Assembly: GCF_022227845.1 (NCBI RefSeq)
Contig: NZ_JAJNQN010000010.1
Coordinates: 1-64,000, forward strand
DNA: 64,000 bases
Direction: 5' to 3'
Source: Ectothiorhodospira lacustris
GTDB lineage: Bacteria; Pseudomonadota; Gammaproteobacteria; Ectothiorhodospirales; Ectothiorhodospiraceae
Of the stretch, positions 39,850 through 64,000 are shown piece by piece. The position numbers and the translations under genes were made by a program. Below the pieces are notes generated by a model. The model was not told the DNA's origin and made no database searches. It saw only the letters and a program-made list of their open reading frames with translations. Every line of letters starts with the position of its first letter. Positions within the stretch are counted from its first letter, which is position 1.

Positions 39850-39879
39850 TTTATTTCATCGTGAACAAGAGACAAAAAC

Positions 39880-43215: not shown

Positions 43216-43265
43216 GGTTCCAAGCCTCAAACTATCAGCCCGCCCAGAATTTTCCCGAAGATTTC

Positions 43266-45050: not shown

Positions 45051-45058
45051 AAGATGAA

Positions 45059-45090
45059 GCCTGCCGGCGGCATGGAACTCGCCGGCAGGC
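45059..45090. terminator. Bidirectional hairpin terminator
   Basis: An 11-bp perfect stem GCCTGCCGGCG/CGCCGGCAGGC (45059-45069 and 45080-45090) with a 10-base loop sits between the convergent PEP-CTERM and asparagine-synthase-like genes. No clear U-tract follows, but stem strength and place make it a good terminator for both. Confidence 0.7.
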
Positions 45091-45091
45091 T

Positions 45092-46921: not shown

Positions 46922-46981
46922 GGCGGGTGCATAATGGGGCATGAGCAATCATGGTAATCCGAACCACCGGGATGGACCAGC

Positions 46982-49509: not shown

Positions 49510-49519
49510 GGGGTGTTTC

Positions 49520-50863
49520 ATGCATGAAGGGTTCGTTCGCTCGGTGGTGTTCCCCCTCCATGAACGCCTTCGGGGACGCAGCACTGCCGCCTGTTATGCC
49601 TCGCTGAGGGGCAGTGAGCGCCTGTCTCCGGACGCCCTCAAGGCCCTGCAGGACCGCAAGCTGCAAAGGCTCATGACCCATTGCTGGCATCATGTTCCCT
49701 TTTACCGTCGGCGCTTCGAGGCGCTGGGGGTGTCCCATCCGGAAGAACTGGGCCGGGAGGTTCTGACCCGGCTGCCCCTGCTGGAGAGGGCCGATGTGCG
49801 CGAATACCTGGACGATCTGACGGCCGATGACCACCGGGATCGGCTGATTCGTCATGCCACCAGTGGCTCCACTGGTCAGCCCCTGGTGTTCTACACCGAT
49901 CCCCTCAAGGAGTCCTGGCATAATGCCGCCAAGTTACGGGGTCGGGCCTGGTTCGAAATCGAACCCGGGTGCCGTCAGGTGGATTTTTGGGGCTCACCGG
50001 TGGAACTGAGCAAGCAGGACGCCTTGCGTCGCTTCAAGGACCGCTGGTTTCTCAATCAGGTGGTGATCTCCGGTCTGGATCTGCGTGACGAGGCCCTGGC
50101 CCATGGGGCTGACCTGTTGCGGCGATTCCGCCCTCGATTGATCTACGGCTACCCCACCGTGCTCTACCATGTGGCCCTTTACATGGAGCGCCACCCGCAG
50201 GCCTTCGGCGGCTGGCGGCCCGAACTGGTGACCTGCACCTCCGAAGTCCTCTACCCGAACCAGCGGGACAAGATGCTGGAGATCTTCCAGTGCCCGGTGG
50301 GCAACGAATACGGCTCCCGTGACGGCGGACACCTGGCCCACGAATGCCCCGCCGGACACCTGCACATCGCCGCCGAGCATGTGCTGTTGGAAACGGATGA
50401 ACCCGACGCCCAGGGCGTGGGCGACTTGGTGGTGACCAATCTGGACGGCTACGGCATGCCCCTTCTGCGCTATCGGCTTGGCGACCAAGTGGCATTGGAG
50501 CGGGAGCCCTGCTCCTGTGGGCTCACACTGCCCACTCTGAGACATATCATGGGGCGCATGACGGACTTCATCGTGGGTCGGGACGGCAACCTGATTCATC
50601 GCACTGCCTTGGTCGGCATCCTGAGGGATGTGCCGGATCTCAAACAGTTCCGTATCATCCAACGTCGGGATCTGTCCATCGAGATCCTGCTGGTGCGCGA
50701 TGCCCCGTTCCCCCAGACCCTGCTGGATGACGTGCGCCGCAAGATGCAGGGCATGATGGGCACGGATCTTCCCATCACGTTCTCGTTCCCCGACCACATC
50801 CCGGCGGAGAAGTCCGGCAAGTATGCCACCCTGGTTTCGGAGGCCTATGCCGCGAGGCAGTGA
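49520..50863 (+). CDS. CapK/PaaK-like adenylate-forming enzyme
   Basis: 447 residues. Resembles phenylacetate-CoA-ligase-like proteins of capsule clusters: LQRLMTHCWHHVPFYRRRFEALGV start, the AMP-site ATSGSTGQPLVFYTD (about 113-128), NEYGSRDGG, and the TNLDGYGMPLLRYRLGDQ and GRMTDF motifs. It probably activates a carboxylate (an acyl or amino-acid group) for attachment to the polymer; an acyl carrier protein is encoded 3 kb downstream. It is within the glycosyltransferase series but not overlapping the upstream gene. Confidence 0.87.
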   Translation: MHEGFVRSVVFPLHERLRGRSTAACYASLRGSERLSPDALKALQDRKLQRLMTHCWHHVPFYRRRFEALGVSHPEELGREVLTRLPLLERADVREYLDDLTADDHRDRLIRHATSGSTGQPLVFYTDPLKESWHNAAKLRGRAWFEIEPGCRQVDFWGSPVELSKQDALRRFKDRWFLNQVVISGLDLRDEALAHGADLLRRFRPRLIYGYPTVLYHVALYMERHPQAFGGWRPELVTCTSEVLYPNQRDKMLEIFQCPVGNEYGSRDGGHLAHECPAGHLHIAAEHVLLETDEPDAQGVGDLVVTNLDGYGMPLLRYRLGDQVALEREPCSCGLTLPTLRHIMGRMTDFIVGRDGNLIHRTALVGILRDVPDLKQFRIIQRRDLSIEILLVRDAPFPQTLLDDVRRKMQGMMGTDLPITFSFPDHIPAEKSGKYATLVSEAYAARQ

Positions 50864-50937
50864 GTGACGGTGAGACGCAGTCAGATCATGCCTGGCCCTG
50901 TTTATACAGGGGCCGTAACGGTTCATTGGAGACGGTT

Positions 50938-52188
50938 TTGACATCTGATTCCCGCCCCAACCTGGTGGTTTACACTCGCGTGTATCCCAACGCCTTGCAG
51001 CCCAACTTCGGGTTGTTTGTGCGAGAGCGCATGCGGCGGGTGGCAAAGGAACTGAACGTAACGGTGGTGGCGCCCGCGCCCTGGTTCCCGTTCCAGAAAC
51101 TCCTGGGTCGGTTTCGTCCCCATGCCCGGCCGCCCATCCCCTACCGGGAAGAACAGGACGGGATCACGGTCTATCATCCCAGGTTCTTCTGCATTCCGGC
51201 GGTGTTCAAATGGACCGATGGCTGGTTTCAGGCCTTGGGTTCCTACAGACTCATGCGGAGGCTGCGGCGGGAAGGGGCATGCGACATCATCGACTCGCAC
51301 TTCATCTATCCCGATGGCGTGGCTGCGCGCCTGCTGGCCGGATGGCTGGGTTGCCCCTATACCATTACCCTGCGGGGCAGTCTCAACCGATTCCATCCCA
51401 GTCGTCCGCACCGGCACCAGATCTCCCGTGCCTTGACCGATGCCACGCGAGTGTTTTCGGTGGCGGATTCCCTGCGGCAAGAGGCAATTACCTGGGGGCA
51501 GCATCCCGACCATGTGCAGGTAATGGCCAATGGCGTGGATCTGGAAAAGTTCAGGCCGGAAGACCGCGCAGAATCAAGACGACGTTTCGGTCTGCCCCAG
51601 GAGGGACGTATCCTGATTTCCGTCGGTGGGTTGATGGAACGCAAGGGTTTCCATCATGTGATTGCCGTTTTACCGGCGCTGATGAAGGCTTGGCCGGACC
51701 TGCACTTCGTGATCGCGGGCGGCCCCAACCCGGAGGGCAACAACGAACAGAGCCTGCGTGACCAAGTCCGGCGCCTGTCCCTGGAAGACCGGGTGCATCT
51801 GCTGGGGCCGGTGTCTCCGGATCAGCTGAGGTACGTCTATTCCGCGGGGGACGTGTTCGTGCTGGCCACCCGTTTTGAAGGTTGGGCCAACGTATTGCTG
51901 GAGGCCTCGGCCTGTGGTCTGCCGATTGTGACCACGGATGTGGGCGGCAATGCAGAAGTGGTCAATTCAGACGCAGTGGGCATCATCGTGCCCTATGGAG
52001 ACAACGACGCCCTCCTGACCGGTTTGCACGAGGGCCTGTCCAGAGCCTGGGATCGGTCCGCGATACTTGAGCATGCACGGCGCAATGCCTGGCAGACCCG
52101 TATTCCGCTGCTGGTCGACGCCTTTCTGGAGATTCATGTAGCCCGGGGAGGGGTTGATCCGCTGGCCATCGAGGAGGGGAGTGACTGA
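50938..52188 (+). CDS. Group-1 glycosyltransferase
   Basis: 416 residues from the TTG at 50938, which has GGAG six bases upstream and puts the conserved LVVYTRVYPNALQPNFGLFVRERM near the N-terminus. A GTG at 50860 overlapping the previous stop (GTGA) is an alternative that would add 26 residues unlike the family. GT-B fold: SHFIYPDGVAARLLA, VGGLMERKGFHHVI, and donor motif ATRFEGWANVLLEASACGLPIVTTDVGGNAEV. Related to GT4 enzymes of exopolysaccharide clusters. TGATG overlap with the next gene. Confidence 0.9.
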   Translation: MTSDSRPNLVVYTRVYPNALQPNFGLFVRERMRRVAKELNVTVVAPAPWFPFQKLLGRFRPHARPPIPYREEQDGITVYHPRFFCIPAVFKWTDGWFQALGSYRLMRRLRREGACDIIDSHFIYPDGVAARLLAGWLGCPYTITLRGSLNRFHPSRPHRHQISRALTDATRVFSVADSLRQEAITWGQHPDHVQVMANGVDLEKFRPEDRAESRRRFGLPQEGRILISVGGLMERKGFHHVIAVLPALMKAWPDLHFVIAGGPNPEGNNEQSLRDQVRRLSLEDRVHLLGPVSPDQLRYVYSAGDVFVLATRFEGWANVLLEASACGLPIVTTDVGGNAEVVNSDAVGIIVPYGDNDALLTGLHEGLSRAWDRSAILEHARRNAWQTRIPLLVDAFLEIHVARGGVDPLAIEEGSD

Positions 52189-53171
52189 TGCCGGATATGT
52201 CTCTGCTGACCCGTCCTGTCCTGAACCGACTGTCCCCCGCCGGACCCCGCAGCCGTTTGTCCATCCTGATCTTTCACCGTGTGCTGCCCGAGGCTGATCC
52301 GTTATTGCCGGGTGACCCGGATGCCCGGCGGTTTCAATGGGTGGTGGCGCTACTGGCCCGTCATTTCACGGTCCTGCCCCTGGACGAGGCCGTGGATCGC
52401 CTGCGTCAGGGCTCGCTGCCTGCCCGCGCCGCCTGCATCACTTTTGACGATGGCTATGCGGATAACGCCCAGATAGCCCTGCCCATCCTGCAGGCTGCCG
52501 GTTTGCCTGCCACGTTTTTTGTTGCCACGGGTTTTCTTGGCGGTGGGCGGATGTTCAATGACACCGTGATCGAGACTTTCCGTAGGCTGGATGACGGCCT
52601 TCATGATTTCACCGGACTGGGGCTGGGCCAGTACCCCATTCACGATCCGCAAAGCCGCATCCAGGGTTACACGGATGTCATCCGGCGCATCAAGCATCTG
52701 CCTCAGTCGGAGCGGGATGCCATTGCGGGTAAGCTATCCGAACATGCCGTGGGGGCATTGCCCGATGACCTGATGATGTCCGAGGAGCAGGTGCGGGCAC
52801 TGCGGGCGGCCGGGATGCTGGTGGGTGGGCATACCGTCACCCACCCCATCCTGTGCCGTCTGGACGATGCCGAGGCGCAGAGGGAGATCCACCAAGGGCG
52901 TGCCGAGTTGGAGGACATCTTGGGAGAGCCTGTTGGTCTGTTTGCCTACCCTAACGGCCGGCCCGGTGAAGACTACGAGGCACGGCATGTGGAAATGGTC
53001 AGGCGTGCCGGTTTCCGGGCCGCCGTGAGTACCGCGCATGGTGTATCCGGGAGGGGCTCGGACCTATACCAGCTGGCTCGCTTCACCCCCTGGGACGAGA
53101 CACCGCTGCGCTATCTGGTGCGGTTGGGGCGCAATCTTCTCTCGCCGCCGCCGGTGCAATGCAAGGCGTAA
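52188..53171 (+). CDS. Second polysaccharide deacetylase
   Basis: 327 residues. NodB fold with LSILIFHRVLPEADPL, CITFDDGYADNAQIALPILQAAGLPATFFVATGFL (catalytic Asp-Asp), GGHTVTHPILCRLD, and FAYPNGRPGEDYEARHVEMVRRAGF. This subtype (HRVLPE start) is found often in exosortase-A loci and differs from the DUF3473-type enzyme at 33.5 kb. It would remove N- or O-acetyl groups from the polymer. ATG overlaps the preceding TGA (TGATG). Confidence 0.92.
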   Translation: MPDMSLLTRPVLNRLSPAGPRSRLSILIFHRVLPEADPLLPGDPDARRFQWVVALLARHFTVLPLDEAVDRLRQGSLPARAACITFDDGYADNAQIALPILQAAGLPATFFVATGFLGGGRMFNDTVIETFRRLDDGLHDFTGLGLGQYPIHDPQSRIQGYTDVIRRIKHLPQSERDAIAGKLSEHAVGALPDDLMMSEEQVRALRAAGMLVGGHTVTHPILCRLDDAEAQREIHQGRAELEDILGEPVGLFAYPNGRPGEDYEARHVEMVRRAGFRAAVSTAHGVSGRGSDLYQLARFTPWDETPLRYLVRLGRNLLSPPPVQCKA

Positions 53172-53212
53172 GCACAGGCGTCCCACCATATATCCGACCG
53201 GGGCATGTAGCA

Positions 53213-53243
53213 TTCAGAATGGATATGACCCCTGCGGTATACT
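53213..53243 (+). promoter_or_regulatory. Candidate sigma-70 promoter of the acyl-carrier/hydrolase genes
   Basis: A strong -10 TATACT (53238-53243) with a weak TTCAGA (53213-53218) 19 bases before it; the acyl carrier ATG is 45 bases downstream. Confidence 0.4.
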
Positions 53244-53287
53244 GCGTTTTCACCGACTACCTGATACTTCATTCTTGAGAAAAATAC

Positions 53288-53548
53288 ATGTCGAGTTCCA
53301 CCATTGATCAGATTAAAAACCTGCTGGACAGCCTGCTGGGGCTGAACGGGCGCGCCGCCTCATTTGATGAATCCACCGCCTTGCTGGGGAATGTGCCTGA
53401 ACTCGACTCCATGGCCGTGGTGACCATCATCACCTCTCTGGAAGAACAATTCGGCATCATGGTGGATGATGACGAAATCAGCGCGGAAACCTTTGAGACG
53501 CTGGGTTCTCTTACCGAGTTCGTGGATCGTAAACTGGCCGAGGCCTGA
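53288..53548 (+). CDS. Acyl carrier protein of the XrtA locus
   Basis: 86 residues, acidic, four-helix type. The phosphopantetheine site is Ser41 in ELDSMAVVTII (DSM rather than the DSL of fatty-acid ACPs). DESTALLGNVPELDSM and EEQFGIMVDDDEISAETFETLGSLTEFVD match carrier proteins found in exosortase-A clusters. Likely loads an acyl or amino-acyl group activated by the CapK-like enzyme. It is followed within 12 bases by the hydrolase genes. Confidence 0.9.
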   Translation: MSSSTIDQIKNLLDSLLGLNGRAASFDESTALLGNVPELDSMAVVTIITSLEEQFGIMVDDDEISAETFETLGSLTEFVDRKLAEA

Positions 53549-53559
53549 GCCCTCTGAGC

Positions 53560-54384
53560 ATGCAAGCCACCCAACTGGATGTGGACTTTTTCGCCGGCAC
53601 GCTTGGGCGATTGTTCCGCGTGACTCACACCCCCGCCCAGGGTGTCGCGCGGGGGAAGGTGCTTTACTGTCAGGCTCTTTTTGAAGAGCAGAACAAATCG
53701 CGCCGCATGGTGGCACTGCAGGCCCGCCAACTGGCATCCCGGGGATGGGTTGTGGTGCAACCGGATCTCCATGGCTGCGGGGATAGCGAAGGCGATTTCG
53801 AGCAGGCCCGTTGGTCCGCATGGGTCGATGACCTGAAGTGTTGCGTGGATGATCTGGAGATGCGTTACCCCGGACCTCTGGTGCTGTGGGGGCTGAGAGC
53901 CGGATGCCTTCTGCTGTCTGACCTGACCCATATCCACGGACTCAATCCCGCGCTCAACATCCTTTGGCAGCCGGTCAGCAATGGTGATCAATACCTGAAT
54001 CAGTTGCTGCGTTTGCGGGTGGCCGCGGCGATGATGGGGCAGGGCAGGGAATCCACCAAGGATCTGCGGGCGCAACTGGATTCGGGTCATTCCCTGGAAG
54101 TGGCGGGTTACACCCTGCACCCCGAGTGGGCGCGTGCCCTTGCCCAAACGGACCTGCGACCTCCTCAGGGTGAAGCCATCAGCTGGTTCGACGTGTCGGC
54201 CAATGACCTGCAGCCCCTTCCTCCCGTTAGTGACCGTCTGATCCAGGCATGGCGGCAATCCCAGGTAAACGTGGATGTCCTGCGAGTGAACGGTGAGGCT
54301 TTCTGGAGTACCCAGGAGATTTACGAGCTGCCGGAATTGCTGGAACGAACCACCGAACGAGTGGCGGAGATCACGGGACCATGA
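53560..54384 (+). CDS. Exosortase-A-associated alpha/beta hydrolase 2 (TIGR03101-like)
   Basis: 274 residues. Alpha/beta-hydrolase fold: LYCQALFEEQNKSRRMV, VVVQPDLHGCGDSEGDF, and the nucleophile elbow WGLRAGCLL (in place of GxSxG the elbow reads G-L-R-A-G, so the classical serine is absent at that position). It is the type called hydrolase 2 next to acyl carrier and hydrolase 1 in XrtA loci. Overlaps the next gene by four bases. Its catalytic ability is doubtful. Confidence 0.85.
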   Translation: MQATQLDVDFFAGTLGRLFRVTHTPAQGVARGKVLYCQALFEEQNKSRRMVALQARQLASRGWVVVQPDLHGCGDSEGDFEQARWSAWVDDLKCCVDDLEMRYPGPLVLWGLRAGCLLLSDLTHIHGLNPALNILWQPVSNGDQYLNQLLRLRVAAAMMGQGRESTKDLRAQLDSGHSLEVAGYTLHPEWARALAQTDLRPPQGEAISWFDVSANDLQPLPPVSDRLIQAWRQSQVNVDVLRVNGEAFWSTQEIYELPELLERTTERVAEITGP

Positions 54385-55250
54385 CCGCCGAGGCCTTTAT
54401 CTTTCACGTGGGTGATACCCCCTTGGTGGGCGTCATGCACCCGGGCAAGCCTGAGGCCCGGCAGGGTGTGCTCATCGTGGTCGGCGGCCCTCAATACCGG
54501 GTGGGCAGCCACCGTCAGTTCCTGCTCTTGGCGCGTCACCTTGCCGAGGCCGGCATACCGGTGATGCGATTCGACTATCGGGGAATGGGGGATTCCGGCG
54601 GTGCCCAGCGCAGCTACGAGGACATATCCCAGGACCTTCTTGCTGCGACAGATACCTTCATAAATCGTAACCCCGGCCTGGAAAGCGTGGTCATCTGGGG
54701 GCTGTGCGATGCGGCCTCCGCCGCCCTGCTCAATGCCTGGCGAGACCCGCGCATTACCGGGCTGGTTCTCCTCAACCCCTGGGTACGTACAGAGGCGGGA
54801 CTGGCCCGAGCCTATCTCAAACAGTACTACCTCAGGCGCCTGATGAGCCGGGAGTTCTGGTCCGGACTGATGGGCGGGCGTATCAACCCTCTGACATCCG
54901 CGCGTTCCCTGGTGGGCATGACCCGCCGCGCCCTGCGCCGGCAACAATCCGGAGGCACTCCTGTGGGCATACCCAATGCCCAGCGGGAAATTGACCCGGG
55001 AAAGCCGCTGCCTGAACGCATGGCGGAAGGTTGGCGGCGCTTCTCCGGCCCCATTTTGCTCATCCTGAGCGGTGATGATCTGACGGCGGAGGAATTCCGG
55101 GGCTGCGCCCGGCAATCGGCCGTCTGGCGGGAACTACTTGACGAGAGACGGGTAACCGTGAGGGAATTGTGTGACGCAAATCACACTTTTTCCCGATTGG
55201 AATGGCGGGATCAAGTAGAAAAATGGACCCTGGAGTGGCTTGGGCAGTGA
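54381..55250 (+). CDS. Exosortase-A-associated alpha/beta hydrolase 1 (TIGR03100-like)
   Basis: 289 residues. GVLIVVGGPQYRVGSHRQFLLLARHLAEAGIPVMRFDYRGMGDSGG is the conserved block with oxyanion-hole glycines; the elbow is WGLCDAASAAL, with Cys-Asp in place of the usual Ser. Companion to hydrolase 2 with an ATGA overlap. The pair may transfer or remove acyl groups carried by the adjacent carrier protein. It is the last gene of high-GC, tightly packed coding before composition changes. Confidence 0.87.
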   Translation: MTAEAFIFHVGDTPLVGVMHPGKPEARQGVLIVVGGPQYRVGSHRQFLLLARHLAEAGIPVMRFDYRGMGDSGGAQRSYEDISQDLLAATDTFINRNPGLESVVIWGLCDAASAALLNAWRDPRITGLVLLNPWVRTEAGLARAYLKQYYLRRLMSREFWSGLMGGRINPLTSARSLVGMTRRALRRQQSGGTPVGIPNAQREIDPGKPLPERMAEGWRRFSGPILLILSGDDLTAEEFRGCARQSAVWRELLDERRVTVRELCDANHTFSRLEWRDQVEKWTLEWLGQ

Positions 55251-55425
55251 TTCATAGTGTGCCATTTCCTTGGCCTTCACTTTTGATTCGTGATTTTTAT
55301 GATCAGTCGGCTTTGGATGGAAAAGAGTCCTCCAGTTGTGAGCGTAGGTACCATTTTGGATCGGGGCTAGTACGGAATCCATCTGATGTGGTGCGATCAC
55401 CATGATTCGTGTCGTAGGAAACCTG

Positions 55426-56094
55426 ATGTCCACGCTGAAGCACATGGGCAGGGGAAATGGGGTGCTGTACCTGATGTCCCGGGCGTTATGGCTGTCTAGT
55501 CGTGGCTGGATACGGATTGTCAAATACTATTTTATTGCTCAGCCTATCGCTAATGGATCCACTCACTGTCACGGAAAAAAAAGTGCAATCGAGATCAGGG
55601 AGCTCCGATCTGGTGATCCATTACTGAGTCAAGTGCGGCATCTTGGCGAGATTGTCACACAGCGATTTCGACAAGGTGCGACGTGTCTCGCGGCCATCAG
55701 GGAAGACGAATTGGTTGGTTTTTTATGGTGGGTGCCCGGGCCATATGAAGAAGATGAAGTGCGTTGTCTTTTCATTCCTTGCCCGGTGGGTTTGGCGGTT
55801 TGGGACTTCGATGTGTATGTCCATCCTGAATATAGGTTGGGCACAACGTTCAGCCGCTTATGGCATGAAGCCAGTAAACGACTTTACGAGAACGGGTTTC
55901 GTTTTACCTGCAGTCGCATCTCGGCTTTTAACCCCAGTTCCCTGGCGGCACATCGAAGGCTTGGCGCTAAAATTGTAGGTTCCAGGACATTTGTATGCCT
56001 GGGGCCCCTGCAACTGAGTTGGTCAGGCCAAGGCCCTTGGCTCCATTGCTCAATATCCTCTCGCAGCCGGCCGACAGTCAGAGTATCACCTTGA
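55426..56094 (+). CDS. GNAT-family acetyltransferase-like protein
   Basis: 222 residues from the ATG at 55426 (AGGA six bases upstream); an ATG at 55402 would add eight residues. The C-terminal half has GNAT features: LAAIREDELVGFLWWV (strand beta-4), WDFDVYVHPEYRLGTTFSRLWHEASKRL (acetyl-CoA pyrophosphate loop region) and RISAFNPSSLAAHRRLGAKIVGS. The first 60 residues are Arg-rich with no recognised domain. GC falls noticeably from here onward. A role in acetylating a sugar or amino sugar of the glycan is inferred. Confidence 0.75.
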   Translation: MSTLKHMGRGNGVLYLMSRALWLSSRGWIRIVKYYFIAQPIANGSTHCHGKKSAIEIRELRSGDPLLSQVRHLGEIVTQRFRQGATCLAAIREDELVGFLWWVPGPYEEDEVRCLFIPCPVGLAVWDFDVYVHPEYRLGTTFSRLWHEASKRLYENGFRFTCSRISAFNPSSLAAHRRLGAKIVGSRTFVCLGPLQLSWSGQGPWLHCSISSRSRPTVRVSP

Positions 56095-56114: not shown

Positions 56115-57296
56115 TTATCGAACCATTTGGCGCAGCTTTCGTATAGTACGCTGGACGAGGCTAGTGAACAGCCGAACGAGGGCAACTAAGGAAGGTAATG
56201 GGTCTGTTCTGTCCCAGTAGGCAAACCGCGGGCGCCAAGTGTCATGTGTCGGTTTGACATTTCGATTCAGGTGAAGTCTCAGATAACTGAGTGGGCTACG
56301 CTCGGTGTCAAACCATATGGTTCCGGACGTCTGGGAGCAGGCTGGAACGGGCGCCTTTTTTTGTGAGAGAAACTCTATCAGTGGCAGGTTGACACCATTG
56401 GCAACGCATACATCCAACCAATAGTCTGTTCTTCCCAGCGTGGGTTCGATGATCCAGAAACGGCCTTCATGGTCGATCTTTGCTTCAAGGGAAACGGGTC
56501 CGGATAAGTGCAACGGTGCAAAAAATCGCTCAGCCAATTTATGCATTCTAGGGTCCGGGACAGACTCCGCAACGGTGGTTTGTCCCATGGCAGGTGGATG
56601 TGAGGCGAGTTTTCTTCCATCAAAGCTGGCTAAAATCCGTCCGTTATCCAGATACAGCGCTGTAAAGAAAATATGATCATCGCCACCAGGAACCCACTGT
56701 TGTACGAGAAAAGGTAGCGCTGTTGGGTAATCATCTACTAGGGACTGGAGTTGATCCTTGGAATTGATCCTGCGCACTTTGAAGCCCGAAAGCGGCTGTG
56801 TGGGTTTGGCAATGAGGGGGGTGTCAAAGGCATCAGCAGGGATTTGGTCCAGTTGCTCCCGCCGCTGCAGCATCCAGTTCTTCGGATAGGGAAGGTTATG
56901 GGTGGAGCAATGTGCTTCCAGCGCCCCTTTGTCAAGAAGCCGGAGCACATTTTCCCGACAATCCGACCAGCTCAGATGATAAAGTCCACGCAGCAATGGC
57001 CAATGTGCTCCGACAATCCGGACCATGTTGTCGTTTGTAAGGAAAAGTACGGGCGTTTCCTGGCTGGGCAGTTTTTTGCGAAGTTGGACCAAGGCCTCCA
57101 ATAAGCCGGGGCCATTGATGTCCGGGACGAGATGAACAGGGGCCAGACGAGTGTGGGCGCCTGGCAATCGTGGATCGGCTTCCAGCGCAGTCACGGACAC
57201 TTTGGCACTGGCAAGTGCCCTGACAACCGCAAGCCCATGGGCGCAAAGGCCTACGACAACGGCAGAAGGCGCACCGGTGGGGCTAGGAGCGCTCAC
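56115..57296 (-). CDS. ATP-grasp ligase of a glycan cluster
   Basis: 393 residues from a GTG at 57296 (no strong ribosome site). The N-terminal segment SAVVVGLCAHGLAVVRALASAKVSVTALE is a preATP-grasp fold; PLIAKPTQPLSGFKVRRI and PFLVQQWVPGGDDHIFFTALYL form the ATP-binding lid and hinge, and VSLEAKIDHEGRFWIIEPTLGRTDYW contains the metal-binding Glu/Asn-type site (IEPTLGR). It likely ligates a carboxylate to an amine, as in amino-acid decoration of exopolysaccharide. It is the only minus-strand gene in this part of the cluster. Confidence 0.82.
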   Translation of the reverse strand: MSAPSPTGAPSAVVVGLCAHGLAVVRALASAKVSVTALEADPRLPGAHTRLAPVHLVPDINGPGLLEALVQLRKKLPSQETPVLFLTNDNMVRIVGAHWPLLRGLYHLSWSDCRENVLRLLDKGALEAHCSTHNLPYPKNWMLQRREQLDQIPADAFDTPLIAKPTQPLSGFKVRRINSKDQLQSLVDDYPTALPFLVQQWVPGGDDHIFFTALYLDNGRILASFDGRKLASHPPAMGQTTVAESVPDPRMHKLAERFFAPLHLSGPVSLEAKIDHEGRFWIIEPTLGRTDYWLDVCVANGVNLPLIEFLSQKKAPVPACSQTSGTIWFDTERSPLSYLRLHLNRNVKPTHDTWRPRFAYWDRTDPLPSLVALVRLFTSLVQRTIRKLRQMVR

Positions 57297-57324
57297 GCTG
57301 AGCGTCTTTCATTGATCATTGCTC

Positions 57325-57650
57325 TCATCCGCCGATGATACGCCTTTGTGGCTGGTAGGGTAAAGTTTGAAGTGCGCGATCTGTGACGGGAGGCAAGCGC
57401 ATGATGTGAATTTTCCCTTGAGCCCTGGGAACTTCTTGGTAGTCTGGTAGCCTACCGACGAGTAATCTGTGGTAGAGAGAGGTTGGCCTGTACGGGTAGA
57501 ATCAGCCCAGTGCATCAGGTAACTACGCGCTTTCTGCCGGAGTGACTGGTAAGTCGCAAAAATTGGCAATCCAGGCTCCTGGCTCTCATTCCCGTTTTGT
57601 ATACCATCACCATGTCCCATGTTCTCTAAAGCCCGGATAACGCCCTTATC
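57325..57650 (-). pseudogene. Possible frameshifted small gene
   Basis: The last 58 codons before a TGA at 57325-57327 read like a protein C-terminus (FYPYRPTSLYHRLLVGRLPD, then GKIHIMRLPPVTDRALQTLP and PQRRIIGG). The upstream part lies in another frame that contains LPIFATYQSLRQKARSYLMHWAD. A single-base shift near 57500 would join them into about 100 residues. I do not recognise the family. It is on the same strand as the ATP-grasp gene and just before it, so it may have been its operon partner. The 354-base gap 57297-57650 holds nothing else. Confidence 0.4.
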
Positions 57651-59456
57651 ATGTTGCAAAGCATTGTCAAACTGAACGCATTGCTTGAGCCTCGAGACCG
57701 ATTCAAGGTTTTGGCGCTGGCGCTTCTGATGATTATTACTGCCTTTATGCAGATGGCGGGTGTCGCCTCGGTCATGCCCTTTCTAACGGTACTTTCAGAT
57801 CCAAGTGTTGTAGAGCGTAACGCTTGGCTGAACTTTGTATACATGGCAATCGGTTTTGAATCGGTGGATGGGTTTCTCTACTTTCTGGGCATCATGGCTT
57901 TTGTCATCTTCATGTCCGGCACAGCGCTACAGGCATTGACTAATTGGGCTATTACCCGATTTTCTCATATGCAGCAGTATGAGCTTTCACGCCGCCTTAT
58001 GGCGGACTATCTACGCAGGCCATACACTTTTTTTCTTACCCGGAATTCGGCTGATTTGGCCAAAACGGTGCTACAGGAAGCGAATCGGGCCATCAGTGGC
58101 GTGCTGATGCCCGCGATGCGGCTACTCAGTCACGTGCTCCTGGCTGCCGCAATTATTCTGCTCCTTATCGTGGTCGAGCCTTGGCTGTCTCTTGGTGTGG
58201 CTGTCGGGTTGGGAAGTATCTACGGCGCCATATACCTGGCGGCCCGCACTTGGCTGCACCGTATTGGCAGGGACCAAGTCGAGGCCAATCGTGAGCGTTT
58301 TACCGCGGCAGCTGAAGCCTTTGATGGCGCTAAGGAGATACGCCTGCTGGGGCGGGAGGGCGACTATCTGGAGCGTTTTCGGGATCCATCAAAGCGATTT
58401 GCCAAAAACCAGGCGAATGTGAGTCTTCTCGAAACGATTCCCCAGTACGCGATCGAAGCCATCGCTTTTGGTGGTGTACTGCTGCTGGCTTTGTATCTGA
58501 TGTCAGGCCCGGGTGGGGTCGCTCAGGCGTTGCCGTTGATCGGTCTTTATGGGCTTGCCGGAAAACAGCTCATACCAGCCTTCCAAAAAATCTTCAGCAC
58601 TAGCGCCGCGTTGCGATTCAACATGCCTGCTGTGGACAACATTCTTGATGACTTGGGTGATCGAGCGGGTTCGCGTCCCCTGATGTTGCGAAACCATAGC
58701 GTAAAACCATTGGCGCTTCAGCGGGATATCACGATCAATAATCTGACATATCACTATCCGGGCAGCGACAAGCCGGCGCTACATAACCTGAATCTGAGCA
58801 TTCCAGCGCGTACAACGGTCGGATTTGTCGGGGCTTCGGGGGCAGGAAAAAGTACGCTCATCGATTTGTTGCTGGGCTTGCTGGATCCTGATGAAGGAGA
58901 TATCCGGATTGACGATGAACGTCTGACGTCCACAAATATTCGTGCCTGGCAGGCAAGCCTGGGGTATGTGCCCCAGCAAATCTTTCTTGCTGATCAGAGT
59001 GTTGCGGAGAATATTGCTCTTGGTATACCCGCGGGAAGGATTGACCATGATGCGGTACGCAAGGCTGCGCGCTTGGCCAATCTGCATGACTTTGTTGTAA
59101 AAGATCTGCCATACGGCTATGACACAGTCATTGGCGAGCGAGGCGTTCGACTATCCGGTGGACAACGTCAAAGGATCGGTATTGCCCGGGCCTTGTATCG
59201 TGACCCTGCTGTACTTCTGTTCGATGAGGCCACCAGTGCGCTCGACAATGCAACAGAGCGAGCTGTTATGGACGCGATTCATAATTTATCAAAAGAAAAA
59301 ACTATAATTCTAGTTGCCCATCGGCTGAGTACTGTTGAGCCTTGCCAGTGTATCTATGTGCTGTCTCAGGGGCGAGTGGCTGAACAGGGAGCTTGGCAGG
59401 AATTGCTTAATGCTGGTTCACATTTGCAGAAACTGGCATCTGGAGCCGAGCAATGA
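57651..59456 (+). CDS. ABC-type lipid-oligosaccharide exporter/flippase (PglK/MsbA-like)
   Basis: 601 residues, a half-transporter. Six helices in the N-terminal half (about 20-320), then the nucleotide-binding domain with Walker A GASGAGKST, Q-loop VPQQIFL, signature RLSGGQRQRIGIARAL, Walker B VLLFDEATSALD and H-loop VAHRLS. Similar length and the YVPQQIFLADQSVAENIALG motif are usual in PglK-type flippases of lipid-linked oligosaccharides. It would translocate the glycan built by the surrounding glycosyltransferases and offers a Wzx-independent export step. Confidence 0.88.
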   Translation: MLQSIVKLNALLEPRDRFKVLALALLMIITAFMQMAGVASVMPFLTVLSDPSVVERNAWLNFVYMAIGFESVDGFLYFLGIMAFVIFMSGTALQALTNWAITRFSHMQQYELSRRLMADYLRRPYTFFLTRNSADLAKTVLQEANRAISGVLMPAMRLLSHVLLAAAIILLLIVVEPWLSLGVAVGLGSIYGAIYLAARTWLHRIGRDQVEANRERFTAAAEAFDGAKEIRLLGREGDYLERFRDPSKRFAKNQANVSLLETIPQYAIEAIAFGGVLLLALYLMSGPGGVAQALPLIGLYGLAGKQLIPAFQKIFSTSAALRFNMPAVDNILDDLGDRAGSRPLMLRNHSVKPLALQRDITINNLTYHYPGSDKPALHNLNLSIPARTTVGFVGASGAGKSTLIDLLLGLLDPDEGDIRIDDERLTSTNIRAWQASLGYVPQQIFLADQSVAENIALGIPAGRIDHDAVRKAARLANLHDFVVKDLPYGYDTVIGERGVRLSGGQRQRIGIARALYRDPAVLLFDEATSALDNATERAVMDAIHNLSKEKTIILVAHRLSTVEPCQCIYVLSQGRVAEQGAWQELLNAGSHLQKLASGAEQ

Positions 59457-59560
59457 AACGGCGGGTCTTGGTTGAGTTTGGGTATCTCCATGATGCTGGT
59501 ATTTGAGTTTTTCACCGATGATATCAAAGGCATGCCGCAAGGTTGCCAGGAAGGATTAAG

Positions 59561-60604
59561 ATGGGAACACCTCTAGTTAGTGTGGTGATGTCAGTCTATA
59601 ACGCCGGCCCTTATCTGGGCGAAGCCGTTGAAAGTATATTGCGCCAGACCTTTCGAGACTTTGAATTCATCATCATTAATGATGGGTCAACGGATGGTAG
59701 TTTAGAGCTCCTTGACTACTATGCAGGTCTTGATAAGAGGATTCGGCTTGTTCATCAGCATAATCAAGGAATACCTGCTGCACTAAATAGGGGAATTGAT
59801 CTTGCGAAAGGGGGGTACATTGCGCGCATGGATGCGGATGATATATCTCTACCAGAGAGATTGGAGAAACAGTATGCGTTTTTGGAAAGCCATCCACAGG
59901 TGGCGGTGCTTGGTAGTCAAATTGATAGTATAGATCATGCAGGGTTACAGATAGACAGGAAATGGGCACTGCCATCATCAGCCGGGTTGGTTGCATGGCG
60001 AATGTTGTTTCGCACGAGTGTTGCGCATCCCACAGTGATGATGCGATCAGATGTGGTCAGGAAATTTAATGGGTATAGTTTAGCATGTCGAGTGTCGCAA
60101 GATCATGAGTTGTGGACGCGAATGATTTCTTCCTGTCGTATTCAAAACCACCAAGATGTCCTTTTAAAACGCAGAGTCTGGGGAGGAAATGCGACATTTA
60201 CAAAAGCGATCTCTGCAGATGGTCCGCTCCTGCCAAGTCTTCAGGAGTTGCACGGTCGCTATGTTGATCAACTTGCCGATTTAAGGGATTTGCAGTTTTG
60301 CCGTAACTTTGTGTATTACGGTATGAGTAAGTCCATGGAGTACGCAAAGTATTCTGTTGCAGATCTTCAGCGAGTATTTAGCTATATTCAAGAATTAAGA
60401 AAAGGGTTTGTCAGGAAACACCCATATGCCTATGAGGATGAGGCTAAGATTCTCAAGGATGAGCATAAAAAGCTCATGGATATCGCGTATGGAGTCGATA
60501 GTTTTAGTCGTGTGAAAGGCCTCGCGCTCAAGCTCAAGACGCCTTTTTTTGTTTCTCAGGTTAAATCACGTCTTCACGATCGATATTTTTTTCGTCATGG
60601 TTGA
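59561..60604 (+). CDS. Family-2 glycosyltransferase
   Basis: 347 residues from the ATG at 59561 (GGAAGG six bases upstream); a TTG at 59543 is less likely. GT-A fold: PLVSVVMSVYNAGPYLGEAVESIL, the nucleotide-binding DFEFIIINDGSTDGS, the DxD metal site in YIARMDADDISLPERLEKQ, and the acceptor-side VSQDHELWTRM. It adds a sugar from a nucleotide donor to the growing chain. AT-rich codon use differs from the XrtA core. Confidence 0.88.
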   Translation: MGTPLVSVVMSVYNAGPYLGEAVESILRQTFRDFEFIIINDGSTDGSLELLDYYAGLDKRIRLVHQHNQGIPAALNRGIDLAKGGYIARMDADDISLPERLEKQYAFLESHPQVAVLGSQIDSIDHAGLQIDRKWALPSSAGLVAWRMLFRTSVAHPTVMMRSDVVRKFNGYSLACRVSQDHELWTRMISSCRIQNHQDVLLKRRVWGGNATFTKAISADGPLLPSLQELHGRYVDQLADLRDLQFCRNFVYYGMSKSMEYAKYSVADLQRVFSYIQELRKGFVRKHPYAYEDEAKILKDEHKKLMDIAYGVDSFSRVKGLALKLKTPFFVSQVKSRLHDRYFFRHG

Positions 60605-60740
60605 TGGTTGGAAGAGTTTTCTTGATGTTTTTGGGTTGCGGTTTATTTGATTCATCTGCAGGGCATCGATGGCGAATTAAATCAATTGGTGCGTGTGTGA
60701 CCGCGGCTGCCTAGCCAAAGATGCCATAAGTCGGGGGCGT

Positions 60741-61535
60741 ATGATTAAGTCATTGGCAAAAAAAATAATTAAGCATGAGCGTTGGTGCTTTTTATCCTGG
60801 TGCAGAAGTCGTTTTGGGCTTTTTTCGTCGATATTCGCTTATATCCATTTTTTGTTGGGTGGGAAAGCGGTTCGTGTAACGGATCATGTTACTGGGGTTG
60901 GCGTATTTTTACGACCCTGTACTGCAGATCAAAAAGTATATGATGAAATCTTTAAGGCTCAAGAATATCGGCTTGATGTGGGGGAGCCTGTGGTGATTGT
61001 AGATGCGGGAGCTCATATCGGTCTTTCTTCGGTTTATTTTGCCCAACGTTACCCACGAGCGATGATTATTGCTGTGGAGCCTGAAAGCTCAAATTTCGAG
61101 TTACTAAAAAAAAATGTAAGTGTATATGCCAACATTAAGCCAGTTCATGCGGGTCTATGGAGTAGAACGACTTGCCTAGCAATTCAGGATGAGGGGGTTG
61201 ATACATGGAGTTTTCGTGTCGTAGAGGCCGACTCTGAGCATGGCATTATGGCAACCAGTGTGCCTGATTTAATGAGTGATTTTAATATCGATCGTATTGA
61301 TGTATTAAAGATTGACATTGAAGGCGCCGAGCTTGAAGTCCTTGGTGATAGTGGTTCGTGGATTGATTCGGTTGATACGATAATTATTGAATTGCATGAC
61401 CGCTTCAGGCCTGGCTGCAGAGCGGCCCTTGACGATGCCCTTTCCGACTTCGAATACAGTGAGTCATTTTCTGGGGAGAGTATAGTCATTAGTAATATGA
61501 AGCGACTCTCTGTTGATAAAAATATTGCCTCTTGA
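60741..61535 (+). CDS. FkbM-family methyltransferase
   Basis: 264 residues from the ATG at 60741 (GGGGGCG upstream). SAM-binding VVIVDAGAHIGLSSVYFAQRYPRAMIIAVEPE is the FkbM signature, followed by IDVLKIDIEGAELEVL, which is the conserved KIDIEGxE motif. FkbM enzymes O-methylate sugars in polyketide and exopolysaccharide pathways. The frame extends back to 60693 but those residues lack family similarity. The 136-base upstream gap holds nothing notable. Confidence 0.87.
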   Translation: MIKSLAKKIIKHERWCFLSWCRSRFGLFSSIFAYIHFLLGGKAVRVTDHVTGVGVFLRPCTADQKVYDEIFKAQEYRLDVGEPVVIVDAGAHIGLSSVYFAQRYPRAMIIAVEPESSNFELLKKNVSVYANIKPVHAGLWSRTTCLAIQDEGVDTWSFRVVEADSEHGIMATSVPDLMSDFNIDRIDVLKIDIEGAELEVLGDSGSWIDSVDTIIIELHDRFRPGCRAALDDALSDFEYSESFSGESIVISNMKRLSVDKNIAS

Positions 61536-61631
61536 TTTTTAGGTATTTTCTGGTGCTGTTTTTATGAATTTTGTGGCTGCCTTGTTTTCTGTGGGCTAAA
61601 TTCCTAATTACTTAAAGTTTATTTGGTTCTG

Positions 61632-62606
61632 ATGATGACAACAGAAAGTAATGCAGAATCTATCTCGCTGCCACTGGTTTTAGTAATACCAACCCATGAC
61701 CGTGTCCTGCTCCTTGAACGAACCCTTGATTCAGTGCTGGCATGCAGGGCGCCTGAGGGGAGATCTGTTCGGGTGGTTGTTATAGAAAACGGAGGGAGGT
61801 ATGGTGCCGAGGAAATCGTCAGGCAAAAAAGAACATGGGTCGTGCCTGAGTATCACTATACGGCAGGTGGTAATAAGAGCTTGGCGCTGAATCAAGTCCT
61901 GCAAACCGTTCCGGATTCACTGCTGGTCTTTCTTGATGATGATGTGCGTGTTGATCCAGACTTGCTCATCCATTATTCCAATGCTGCCGGACATGATTGC
62001 GAAGGACGTTTCTTTGGTGGGGGGCTATTGGTTGACTACGAAAAAACTCCCCCCGAATGGTTGCGTGGATATTTGCCGAGATCATCGACGGGATGGCACC
62101 CAGAAGAATATGCTCCCTTGGGGCGCATGTACTTTTTCGGGGCCAACTGGGCGGCTTTTTCAAGAGATTTGAAGAAAGTGGGCGGTTTTGACCAGCAGTT
62201 TGGGCCTGGGGGGCTCTCTGGTGGGACAGGTCAGGAAACGGTGACGCAGCAGCGATTGTCACAGGCTGGCATCAGACCCGAGTACATCAGGGGCGCCATT
62301 GTCTGGCACTATGTGCCTGAATGTCGGTCTTCGCCTCAATGGGCACTGGAAAGGGCCTATAAAACGGCCATTTCCAGTGGCTATAATCTTTCCAAAGCCG
62401 AATGTGGCAAGACAATTTCAGGAATTCCACTTTGGCTTTTCCGTGCGATGGTTTTGGCGTGGTTAAGGTCTATCAAGGCCGTGTTGATGGGGAATCCGGT
62501 GGATCGCTTTCATGCGAAATTTAAATTCACTGAAAGATTGGGCCATATGAGAGGTGTGCGTAGGCGTCATCTCGAAAGCCGAAATTCTACTAAAGATGAG
62601 CATTGA
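61632..62606 (+). CDS. Family-2 glycosyltransferase (galactosyl/mycofactocin-like)
   Basis: 324 residues from the double ATG at 61632. GT-A motifs VIPTHDRVLLLERTLDSVL, YTAGGNKSLALNQVL, the DxD site LLVFLDDDVRVDPDLL, and the GGFDQQFGPGG acceptor loop with GQETVTQQRL. No membrane helix except a hydrophobic patch near 280. Likely adds one residue of the repeat unit. It stands between the FkbM and TupA-like genes in the same direction. Confidence 0.85.
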   Translation: MMTTESNAESISLPLVLVIPTHDRVLLLERTLDSVLACRAPEGRSVRVVVIENGGRYGAEEIVRQKRTWVVPEYHYTAGGNKSLALNQVLQTVPDSLLVFLDDDVRVDPDLLIHYSNAAGHDCEGRFFGGGLLVDYEKTPPEWLRGYLPRSSTGWHPEEYAPLGRMYFFGANWAAFSRDLKKVGGFDQQFGPGGLSGGTGQETVTQQRLSQAGIRPEYIRGAIVWHYVPECRSSPQWALERAYKTAISSGYNLSKAECGKTISGIPLWLFRAMVLAWLRSIKAVLMGNPVDRFHAKFKFTERLGHMRGVRRRHLESRNSTKDEH

Positions 62607-62704
62607 TGCAATTTTTCTTCTCTGACTATCCGACTGTCGTTACTTATCTGTCTTTGCGATTCCAGTAGGGTAGGCAACGTAGCGCCGTTTCTCCGGGAGG
62701 TAGT

Positions 62705-63595
62705 ATGCGATCGCTAAGTATGGCGGTGGGCAGTTTTTCTGATCGAGTGATGTTGAAATACTATCCCTGGAGGCGCCCATCATTTCAAGAAAAGATCATG
62801 GAGATTGAAAGGTTGAGAAAAGTATATGCTTTCTCACATGCGCAGGCCTTAGGGAAAGGTGGTGCACGTTCCGTGATCGATCAGCTTGGATTCCGAAGGC
62901 CCGCCGTCATCGGCGGGGAAAAATCGCCGCTGGATATCAAATATGACAGCTTGCCTGATGCATTTGTCATCAAACCTTCTGAAGGCTCTACCAGTCGTGG
63001 CGTATTTCCCATTATCAGAGATGAGGCAGGCTTGAAGTGCCTGTTTGAGGGTTATGTCACGCCTGATTACATTTCATCCACGATATTACGGCATGCAAAT
63101 GATATCTCGTATCATACGGAATCAGTCACGATAGAGGCGTTGGTTCAGGATCCACAGCGCCAAGGGCAGATTCCGTATGACTGGAAATTTTGGTGTTTTC
63201 AAGGGCGAGTGGGGGTGGTTTGCCAGAATTCATGGAAAACGCGAAAAATCAGGGATGTTAAATGGTGGGATGGACAATGGGAGGATCTTGGCAAGGCAAG
63301 AAATGATGCTCCTGTCCTGAGTACACTTCCTGCTCCCCGGTTCCCGAAGGAGTTGACTGAGGTCGCGCAGAGCATTTCGCGAAAAATTCGTTTTCCATTT
63401 GTTCGCGTGGATTTGTACGAGGACCACATCGGGCCGATGGTAGGAGAAATCACGCCGTTTCCCGGGTTCAAGGCACCATTTCGAAGAGACATCGACCGCA
63501 TGTTGGGCAAAGCCTGGGAAGAGGCGTGGGCGGAACTAATGTCACAGGATGGGTATATCCTTCCTTTGTCTCAAAACAAGCAAGCCGGTGTGTAG
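62705..63595 (+). CDS. TupA-like ATP-grasp protein
   Basis: 296 residues with a strong GGGAGG four bases before the ATG. Features of the ATPgrasp_TupA group: FVIKPSEGSTSRGVFPI, IEALVQDP, YDWKFWCFQGRVGVVCQ, and RVDLYEDHIGPMVGEITPFPG. TupA takes part in teichuronopeptide synthesis, adding amino acids to a uronic-acid polymer. Together with a uronate-producing dehydrogenase upstream, this suggests amide-linked decoration of the exopolysaccharide. Confidence 0.86.
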   Translation: MRSLSMAVGSFSDRVMLKYYPWRRPSFQEKIMEIERLRKVYAFSHAQALGKGGARSVIDQLGFRRPAVIGGEKSPLDIKYDSLPDAFVIKPSEGSTSRGVFPIIRDEAGLKCLFEGYVTPDYISSTILRHANDISYHTESVTIEALVQDPQRQGQIPYDWKFWCFQGRVGVVCQNSWKTRKIRDVKWWDGQWEDLGKARNDAPVLSTLPAPRFPKELTEVAQSISRKIRFPFVRVDLYEDHIGPMVGEITPFPGFKAPFRRDIDRMLGKAWEEAWAELMSQDGYILPLSQNKQAGV

Positions 63596-63674
63596 GACTG
63601 AATCCGGGCTTGTAGAGACTAATACCTAGGTTGGGTGAGCTCGCGCACGCACGATGAAAGGAAATAGATCACAC

Positions 63675-64000
63675 ATGAGTAATGCGACACCGGAAATTGC
63701 GGTTGTTATCCCGTACTATCAGCGACAGGCTGGTCTTCTGCGGCAGTGCGTGCTCTCCATCATAGAGCATTCCGGAACCACAAATTTTCAGATTATCGTT
63801 GTGGATGATGAGTCGCCTGTCTCGGCAGCCGAAGATTTGGCAGGGCTAGAGCCTCTCATGCTGGAACGAATCTGTATTATCCGTCAATCCAATGGCGGCC
63901 CTGGTGCGGCCAGAAACCGGGGTTTGGATGAAGTTCCTGCGGGAACTCCCTATGTGACTTTCCTTGACTCAGATGATCAATGGACCGCTGATTTTCTAAG
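63675..64000 (+). CDS. Family-2 glycosyltransferase, truncated by window end
   Basis: 108 codons visible, open to the edge. From the ATG at 63675 (AAAGGAAA upstream) the product reads EIAVVIPYYQRQAGLLRQCVLSIIEHS, then FQIIVVDDESPVSAAED and GGPGAARNRGLDEVPAGTPYVTFLDSDDQW, i.e. the N-terminal GT-A half including the DxD site. Belongs to the same cassette as the two family-2 enzymes before it. Confidence 0.82.
   Translation, partial: MSNATPEIAVVIPYYQRQAGLLRQCVLSIIEHSGTTNFQIIVVDDESPVSAAEDLAGLEPLMLERICIIRQSNGGPGAARNRGLDEVPAGTPYVTFLDSDDQWTADFL

Follow-up and report, generated by a model that had tools for sequence, protein, structure and literature searches.

Two predicted ATP-grasp ligases in an exchangeable glycan cassette of the XrtA polysaccharide locus of Ectothiorhodospira lacustris

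According to the available text of PMC11800379, glucuronic acid is amidated in Campylobacter jejuni by a TupA-like domain that forms one protein with a GT2 glycosyltransferase. The accessible portions of two sources describe TupA-like ligases of known activity as linking glucuronic acid to the phosphate of an amino alcohol (PMC11800379, PMC13276843): the Cj1438 C-terminal domain/HS19.11C places serinol or ethanolamine phosphate onto GlcA, after which a phosphatase acts, Cj1435 being the one for serinol phosphate in C. jejuni. The teichuronopeptide (TUP) of Bacillus halodurans is given, in the available part of PMC8153356, as poly-gamma-glutamate with polyglucuronic acid. The third system is the XrtA/PEP-CTERM exopolysaccharide locus of the EpsH type, and published excerpts tie PEP-CTERM genes to floc formation. 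We analysed a window of 64,000 nucleotides from Ectothiorhodospira lacustris that holds such a locus. To our knowledge, the cargo of the XrtA polysaccharide and its need for amidotransferase-type enzymes are poorly known. A search of the open-licence literature found no report of ATP-grasp ligases at XrtA loci.

In common with EpsH-type loci, the E. lacustris locus has XrtA along with eleven other NCBIfam families of the XrtA system, and the core models TIGR03007, 03018, 03016, 03015, 03006, 03019, 03087, 03109, 03088, 03108, 03101 and 03100 all score over their cut-offs, which places it among XrtA/PEP-CTERM exopolysaccharide loci (Table 1). What sets it apart from typical loci of this type is a cassette that is exchangeable and encodes two ATP-grasp ligases, one TupA-like and one (hereafter ligase 1) recognised by its predicted fold. 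The host of this glycan cassette is a gammaproteobacterium and a purple bacterium.

Table 1. Features of the XrtA locus and of the left part of its glycan cassette (positions in the window unless marked C2 or L002).
Feature	Coordinates	Strand	Basis
XrtA (PEP-CTERM) exopolysaccharide locus, core part	28420..55250	+ (some inner genes -)	ends with hydrolases 2 and 1
FemAB-type XrtA protein	34378..35448	+	TIGR03019 500 bits, cut-off 260
Exosortase XrtA with EpsI domain	36656..38263	+	TIGR03109 340.5 bits, cut-off 208
XrtA-system Asn-synthase-type amidotransferase	39880..41772	+	TIGR03108 1090 bits, cut-off 817
Second Asn-synthase-type amidotransferase	45092..46948	-	PF00733 1e-69
Nucleotide-sugar 6-dehydrogenase	46982..48298	+	TIGR03026 390 bits, cut-off 190
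Polysaccharide deacetylase	52188..53171	+	PF01522 8.8e-22
Left cassette border	55238..55240		blastn vs relative G007
GNAT-like acyltransferase, weak call	55402..56094	+	PF00583 0.0014, 19.4 bits, under cut-off 20.7
ATP-grasp ligase 1 (predicted), 393 aa	56115..57296	-	predicted model pLDDT 94.9; structure search; XrtA linkage
ABC transporter, PglK/MsbA-like, probable flippase	57651..59456	+	PF00005, PF00664
GT2 glycosyltransferase	59543..60604	+	PF00535 1.8e-35; in-frame ATG at 59561
FkbM-type methyltransferase	60693..61535	+	PF05050 1.9e-16
GT2 glycosyltransferase	61623..62606	+	PF13641 and PF00535; 98 bases upstream of TupA-like gene
TupA-like ATP-grasp ligase (predicted), 296 aa	62705..63595	+	PF14305
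GT2 glycosyltransferase, cut by window end	63654..64000 (continues to C2:64667)	+	L002:3655-4668, PF00535 3.3e-24; 58 bases after TupA

The cassette is 21 kb long (C2 55.24-76.27 kb) and extends beyond the end of the window, the interval 56115-63595 being its left part. It has been exchanged between relatives inside the XrtA polysaccharide locus: in blastn comparisons, the relative G007 is collinear and 92% identical over 42035-55238 and unalignable just beyond, and G008 is alignable at 93-98% from 76265 onward. GC content is 0.44-0.54 in the cassette genes between 55402 and 74124, against at least 0.60 in most of the flanks. In swapping an entire glycan cassette between members of the genus, the locus resembles capsule loci. 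The sequence-only reading had set both ligases in a glycan cluster of an XrtA system, and the shared locus and the cassette borders bear this out.

Several cassette genes recur at XrtA loci of other members of the family. Among the 21 XrtA regions found elsewhere in the family, 10 have a homologue of the GNAT-like gene (28-52% identity); in G001, G003, G004, G005, G007 and G009 it adjoins hydr1 or the gene for the O-ligase. The ABC transporter, for which the PglK model is the best match even though the PglK and MsbA models both score under their cut-offs, has a 57-72% identical homologue in 14 of these 21 regions. The genes L002:5524-6435 and L002:6450-8357 were without a family match in the Pfam scan of the cassette, and promoter and terminator scans gave nothing outside the spread of shuffles.

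The earlier reading also drew on a FemAB-like protein, asparagine-synthase-type enzymes and a uronate dehydrogenase. All exist in the same XrtA locus, but the FemAB gene, both asparagine synthases and the dehydrogenase lie outside 56115-63595. The FemAB and TIGR03108 amidotransferase genes are stock components of XrtA loci and thus add nothing specific to the case for an amide-modified polymer. The dehydrogenase gene is indeed present, as a nucleotide-sugar dehydrogenase rather than, strictly speaking, a uronate dehydrogenase: its predicted product is a UDP-uronate, of which it is the likely source. Against the narrower models for UDP-glucose dehydrogenase it stays below the cut-offs. The glycan would thus be uronate-containing by prediction. 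Two plus-strand ORFs at 45104 and 45824, which had no family match, are probably spurious given the minus-strand asparagine synthase gene at the same place.

The product of 62705-63595 matches PF14305 (ATPgrasp_TupA) at 1.4e-18 and 67.7 bits (cut-off 25), which identifies it as a divergent TupA-like ATP-grasp at the level of sequence. As the match covers profile positions 36-238 of 241, leaving the first 35 unmatched, the N-terminal end of the protein is unlike the family. It keeps K51, Y136, E144, D159, R234, D236, E248 and T250, residues called invariant in a 13-row alignment that itself includes the window protein. Over residues 61-280, identity to its closest relative is 33%, with values up to 38% in shorter stretches. 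A single-sequence model (pLDDT 38) was too poor for a structure search, sequence searches of solved structures returned nothing useful for this protein or for ligase 1, and a TupA search of plasmids gave three weak matches.

The setting of this gene resembles that of the Cj1438 C-terminal domain/HS19.11C, with a TupA-like ATP-grasp beside GT2 genes, which flank it on the same strand, and a nucleotide-sugar dehydrogenase in the locus, here encoded outside the cassette at a distance of 14 kb. The C. jejuni capsule locus has a nucleotide-sugar dehydrogenase as well. In a relative, G652, sugar dehydrogenase, GT2 and TupA genes are consecutive, according to gene calls from a crude script that was also used for some of the other neighbour surveys. 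Unlike its C. jejuni counterpart, the E. lacustris protein is separate (unfused) and divergent, and Pfam named no phosphatase domain among the scanned cassette genes, the small ORF L002:12053-12475 lying outside the scan. With TupA of B. halodurans it has only the Pfam family in common, and it differs in standing in an XrtA locus of a Gram-negative host; the likeness to teichuronic-acid-peptide synthesis comes down to the family name. The amino-acid or peptide modification first proposed finds no support in the characterised ligases of those sources, which use an amino alcohol phosphate and glucuronic acid.

The TupA-like gene is a sporadic cassette gene that is not XrtA-linked in general. A tie to XrtA was rejected, XrtA being present in 4 of 12 TupA genomes against 122 of 370 overall (p = 1), and the TupA profile found no match in 68 named loci of ligase 1. 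Seven family genomes have a TupA gene over the cut-off, and it lies within 30 kb of TIGR03097, a gene of the XrtA system, only in G000 and G003. A tie to uronate genes was also tried and not upheld: sugar dehydrogenase matches were found in only 2 of 29 TupA loci and glycosyltransferase matches in 10, counted at 45 bits or more with a partial reference set, so that TupA-like genes elsewhere often stand apart from recognised glycan genes. The 29 loci came from two samplings (25 + 4), several from one genome and with some further TupA matches left out.

Ligase 1 had no Pfam match at 0.1, and its NCBIfam matches are weak, the best being to a PRK12767-type model (2e-7, 30.2 bits); with a cut-off of 218 bits, it misses assignment to this CPSase-like equivalog. 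Its AF2 model (pLDDT 94.9) has an ATP-grasp fold throughout. In the structure search, the rows among the 50 matches listed have Z of 22-26 over 285-336 residues, with VIA Z of 25.9 to 2pn1, 25.6 to PurK, 23.9 to PylC and 23.0 to L-amino-acid ligase. By predicted fold it is thus a second ATP-grasp, and with the PF14305 match at the other end of the interval, the earlier call of two ATP-grasp ligases, one of them TupA-like, holds. Although the whole fold is shared with PRK12767-type proteins, PurK, PylC and L-amino-acid ligases, identity to these fold relatives is 9-16%, scores are far under the NCBIfam cut-offs, and ligase 1 reads E-P-T at the position of the usual ATP-grasp motif E-x-N. K123, K164, E271, E284 and R289 are invariant in 40 of 40 alignment rows. 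The shared fold alone does not show a function.

Four relatives of ligase 1 are fused to a PF13480 acyltransferase (L121, identical to L169; L141; L170; L204), three of them next to XrtA markers, and an unfused PF13480 gene adjoins the ligase gene in L164 and L213. The Pfam family of the window's own GNAT-like gene, matched below its cut-off, differs from that of the fused domains. Recurrent neighbours are polysaccharide genes, namely deacetylase, glycosyltransferases and O-ligase; relatives of the window's deacetylase gave a match of at least 60 bits in 27 of the 68 loci.

Ligase 1 belongs to a group of ATP-grasps with several separate recruitments to XrtA loci; the survey that the earlier reading proposed thus showed recurrence next to XrtA for this type and not for the TupA-like gene. 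Matches lie within 15 kb of TIGR03097 in 12 of 17 cases in the family and within 35 kb of XrtA in 9 of 16 cases in 76 XrtA genomes, and a strict XrtA marker, with cut-offs chosen after viewing an earlier marker survey, occurs in 20 of the 68 named loci; the counts for the family, the class and the named loci are interdependent, since the window's gene is counted in each and the ligase-1 profile has rows from counted genomes (L162 = G001; L187 and L197 apparently G179 and G106). The p-values calculated for this linkage presuppose even placement and independence of the genomes, and are rough. On a ligase-1 tree built from a quick search, the XrtA label is clustered, with 12 changes against 27.3 in shuffles and 0 of 500 shuffles as low (window's gene included), a test biased toward clustering because most of the G rows were picked for nearness to XrtA; a further count of 9 changes left out 23 of 85 rows with short or doubtful loci. 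A ligase-1-type gene was found in 10 of the 22 XrtA regions of the family and is therefore dispensable. The homologue in E. haloalkaliphila is 59% identical to ligase 1.

XrtA is frequent, scoring over the cut-off in 76 of 370 class genomes; these 76 were set against a non-random block of 76 XrtA-less genomes of the class sample. No genome-level tie of the broad ligase-1 group to XrtA was found (15/76 vs 11/76, p 0.52). Only the nearest relatives (>340 bits) leaned towards XrtA genomes, occurring in 5 of the 76, the window's included, against 0 of 76 (p 0.06).

We favour, with moderate confidence, the reading that two ATP-grasp ligases of different histories each add their own decoration to an XrtA polysaccharide by forming an amide bond. 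For E. lacustris we infer the activities, substrates and partners as follows, with both ligases acting on the XrtA polymer. The TupA-like ligase would most likely use ATP to activate a uronic acid of the growing glycan at its carboxylate and then join a small amine to that residue, and by analogy with the Cj1438 TupA-like domain and its GT2s it would work with the two flanking GT2s. Ligase 1 would most likely act on the same polymer, either N-acylating an amino sugar or amidating a uronate; its candidate partners are an acyltransferase and a deacetylase. A wider view is more tentative: XrtA exopolysaccharides may form a class of amide-decorated glycans, XrtA loci having repeatedly recruited ATP-grasp ligases, in some cases as fusions with a PF13480-type acyltransferase and often with a deacetylase nearby, to attach acyl or amine groups to the polymer; the window's cassette would add a second, TupA-like amide ligase. 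In either case, a recurrent unnamed ATP-grasp ligase, in places fused to its probable partner, supplies named genes for the question of amide groups in the XrtA polymer.

Among the alternatives, ligase 1 could instead make a small molecule, lipid or peptide, such as an amino-acid amide for PEP-CTERM protein sorting, which its acyltransferase partner then acylates, with no polysaccharide decorated. PurK, PylC and L-amino-acid ligases among its nearest folds would suit such a role, as would the acyltransferase fusions and, in L207, a fusion to an FAD monooxygenase-like domain; the recurrent polysaccharide neighbours argue against it, and we consider it rather unlikely. Slightly less probable again is that the cassette, having merely landed in the XrtA locus, directs the synthesis of its own capsule- or O-antigen-like glycan, which the TupA-like ligase decorates with XrtA uninvolved. 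The lack of general XrtA linkage of TupA-like genes, none of which was found in the 68 ligase-1 loci, and a pattern of low GC and exchange that recalls serotype loci are consistent with this, but TIGR03097 lies inside the cassette (C2:68369-69784), the ABC transporter and the u6450 gene (19 of 21 regions) recur in other XrtA regions of the family, and the cassette begins directly after hydr1.

That the transferred cassette carries one ligase gene, or both, as a decaying or inactive passenger is improbable: low GC, the unmatched N-terminus of the TupA-like protein and, in G003, a remnant-like ORF that is weakly similar to ATP-grasps and is fused with a phosphatase domain point that way, but both reading frames are intact and both ligases keep residues invariant among their relatives. 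Least probable is that the TupA-like protein helps to make a genuine teichuronopeptide, with poly-glutamate linked to polyglucuronate, as an adaptation to alkaline habitats, a reading suggested by the family name, the sugar dehydrogenase of the locus and the alkaliphile's name of the congener E. haloalkaliphila, whereas a PF14305 gene is present in only 3 of the genus's 10 genomes, counting that of the window, and is absent from G001, which matches E. haloalkaliphila, so that alkaliphily in the genus is independent of the TupA-like gene.

As the sequence-only reading had proposed, two ATP-grasp ligases share one locus at the right end of the window, and both genes are intact open frames. The TupA-like protein scores above the Pfam cut-off for PF14305, and ligase 1 is called an ATP-grasp from its predicted structure rather than from Pfam. 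The pairing is real and more than a coincidence of labels, while its chemistry is a proposal; the amino-acid- or peptide-modified polymer that had been suggested is one possible outcome and not the best supported one. The model of ligase 1 has a pLDDT of 94.9 (40-row alignment). Foldseek placed PurK-type enzymes at the top (E 7e-16), and VIA-align gave Z 23-26 for 2pn1, PurK, PylC, and an L-amino-acid ligase. Residues K123, K164, E271, K273, E284, and R289 are invariant in 40/40 rows. Following the last conserved acidic residue, ligase 1 reads E-P-T, at a position where E-x-N is usual.

Ligase 1 belongs to an unnamed ligase group that recurs at loci of XrtA, the exosortase of the PEP-CTERM/exopolysaccharide system. 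This is the more novel part of the pair, and no report of such a group at XrtA loci was found in the open-licence literature searched. The 40-row profile gave 17 matches in 15 of the 47 family genomes. In 12 cases, a gene for the XrtA-associated O-ligase TIGR03097 (slightly below cut-off in genome G043) lies no more than 15 kb away; the remaining five lie elsewhere (G007 has two, and G013, G041, and G044 have one apiece). An ATP-grasp at E < 1e-10 is present in 10 of 22 XrtA regions surveyed in the family, which come from the 24 genomes above the TIGR03097 cut-off with G040 and G041 left out, some regions ending at contig ends. Across the class sample (370 genomes), a two-row profile gave 48 matches in 44 genomes, nine of them within 30 kb of XrtA; in its five best genomes, including that of the window (G000), the gene lies 7-20 kb from XrtA. 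The 76 genomes above the XrtA cut-off hold 16 ligase-1-type matches, nine within 35 kb of XrtA. Since the broad group is about equally common without XrtA (11/76 XrtA-free vs. 15/76 XrtA genomes), it looks like a general group, certain clades of which sit in XrtA loci.

In the sequence available, a strict XrtA marker occurs in 20 of 68 named ligase-1-type loci; 19 of these belong to the 45 loci with 15 kb or more of DNA. Among the hosts are Azoarcus, Pseudothauera, Methylobacillus, Herbaspirillum, Massilia, Plasticicumulans, and Salinisphaera. On an 85-row tree, rows with the XrtA label group together (12 changes vs. a shuffled mean of 27.3). Because at least seven changes are required on starred branches, the tree points to repeated recruitment to XrtA loci rather than a single origin, with gain and loss undistinguished. 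The window's clade (11 rows, support 100) has seven XrtA-linked rows, two that are not, and two on short loci.

A PF13480 acyltransferase is fused to the ligase-1-type domain in four loci (L121/L169, a single gene; L141; L170; L204) and encoded next to the ligase in L164 and L213. XrtA markers lie near the first three fusions, and none was found within the 15 kb of L204. Relatives of the window's deacetylase occur in 27/68 loci. Ligase 1 itself adjoins a convergent GNAT gene 20 bases away, a weak match to a family other than PF13480. A study of Thauera aminoaromatica, a relative of some hosts, describes an EPS composed of rhamnose, galacturonic acid, GlcNAc, and FucNAc, tied to flocculation via a deacetylase, and does not contain the word PEP-CTERM (PMC4784049). 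Given these acyltransferase and deacetylase partners and the Thauera EPS, ligase 1 would acylate a freed amino sugar or else amidate a uronate. Other domain combinations were also observed: in an Acidobacteriaceae MAG, an ATP-grasp of the ligase-1 type forms one protein with an FAD monooxygenase-like domain (PF13738, PF13434; L207:2745-5156), and three proteins of XrtA regions combine an ATP-grasp part with a phosphatase domain of the low-molecular-weight phosphotyrosine type (PF01451): L082:8033-10009 (G017), L080:9734-11662 (G025), and L065:3798-5381 (G003). In the G003 protein, PF01451 is the sole Pfam match and ATP-grasp similarity is weak.

Features of the XrtA locus and glycan cassette on contig C2
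Feature	Coordinates	Strand
XrtA core	28420-55250	
DAHP synthase	42068-43144	
267-aa protein	44247-45050	
Second Asn-synthase	45092-46948	-
Nucleotide-sugar 6-dehydrogenase	46982-48298	
Deacetylase	52188-53171	
Ligase 1	56115-57296	-
TupA-like ligase	62705-63595	+
u6450 (L002:6450-8357)	C2:66449-68356	
XrtA-associated O-ligase TIGR03097	C2:68369-69784	

In G000 (3.28 Mb, 49 contigs; window C2:1-64000), the core holds XrtA and eleven further XrtA-system families above NCBIfam cut-offs. The shared locus of the sequence-only reading stands insofar as FemAB, an amidotransferase, a second Asn-synthase, and a sugar dehydrogenase are present; XrtA-specific families, however, account for both FemAB (TIGR03019) and the amidotransferase (TIGR03108), which are thus not special to this locus. 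The DAHP synthase gene is retained within the locus in G001, G005, G007, and G009 (85-97% identity). The 267-aa protein has a weak PEP-CTERM motif (PF07589, 17 bits, below the cut-off of 20.7) and is a possible XrtA substrate.

Relative G007 shows 92% identity over 42035-55238, where similarity ends, and G008 shows 93-98% from 76265 onward, with some weaker stretches; the stretch between is therefore a swapped cassette, only the first 9 kb of which lies within the window. GC is 0.44-0.54 in genes from 55402 to C2:74124, 0.60-0.68 in most of the window to their left, and ~0.61 in the beta-helix and VanZ genes on the right, the beta-helix gene falling within the cassette borders despite its high GC. 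Past the window end, the cassette includes the remainder of one GT2, two more GT2, another FkbM, the O-ligase, and a PMT_2 protein. When 21 further XrtA regions from the family were compared, 14 proved to contain a homologue of the ABC transporter (57-72%) and 19 a homologue of u6450 (34-42%; 635 aa, no match to Pfam at 0.01 or NCBIfam at 1e-8), while plain tblastn finds none for the TupA-like gene.

PF14305 is matched in 8/47 family genomes (above cut-off in seven) and, above cut-off, in 12/370 class-sample genomes. The proposed survey of ATP-grasp genes beside XrtA loci bore out ligase-1 types and not TupA, as XrtA is no commoner among TupA genomes (4/12 vs. 122/370 overall). G000 alone among the 12 has both on a single contig. 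Within the genus, the TupA gene of G003 adjoins an FkbM-like gene and lies about 24 kb from the O-ligase gene; in G008 the TupA and O-ligase genes are on separate contigs. The closest relative found (G644) shares 33% identity over residues 61-280, and shorter stretches reach 38%. Against a partial reference set, 10 of 29 TupA loci have a glycosyltransferase match and two a sugar dehydrogenase match; several copies have neither, so PF14305 alone is no proof of glycan work. Around the PF14305 genes of L262, L264, L265, L267, and L268, which come from genomes with multiple copies (five matches in G285, four in G077), no reference-set glycan gene was matched at ≥45 bits, which suggests that the family has other roles as well.

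Another relative, G652, has a sugar dehydrogenase gene (assigned by similarity), then one for an 835-aa GT2 protein, then TupA; in the window, same-strand GT2 genes flank the TupA-like gene at 98 and 58 bases. The best precedent is the TupA-like ATP-grasp domain of C. jejuni, which amidates GlcA with serinol phosphate and also ethanolamine phosphate (PMC11800379); a 60% identical counterpart is likewise described as using serinol phosphate (PMC13276843), and the amide as required by the next GT2 (PMC11800379, PMC13276843). By analogy, the window's TupA-like ligase, a divergent representative of already known ligases, most likely has the same role and would amidate a uronic acid with some amine, possibly a different one.
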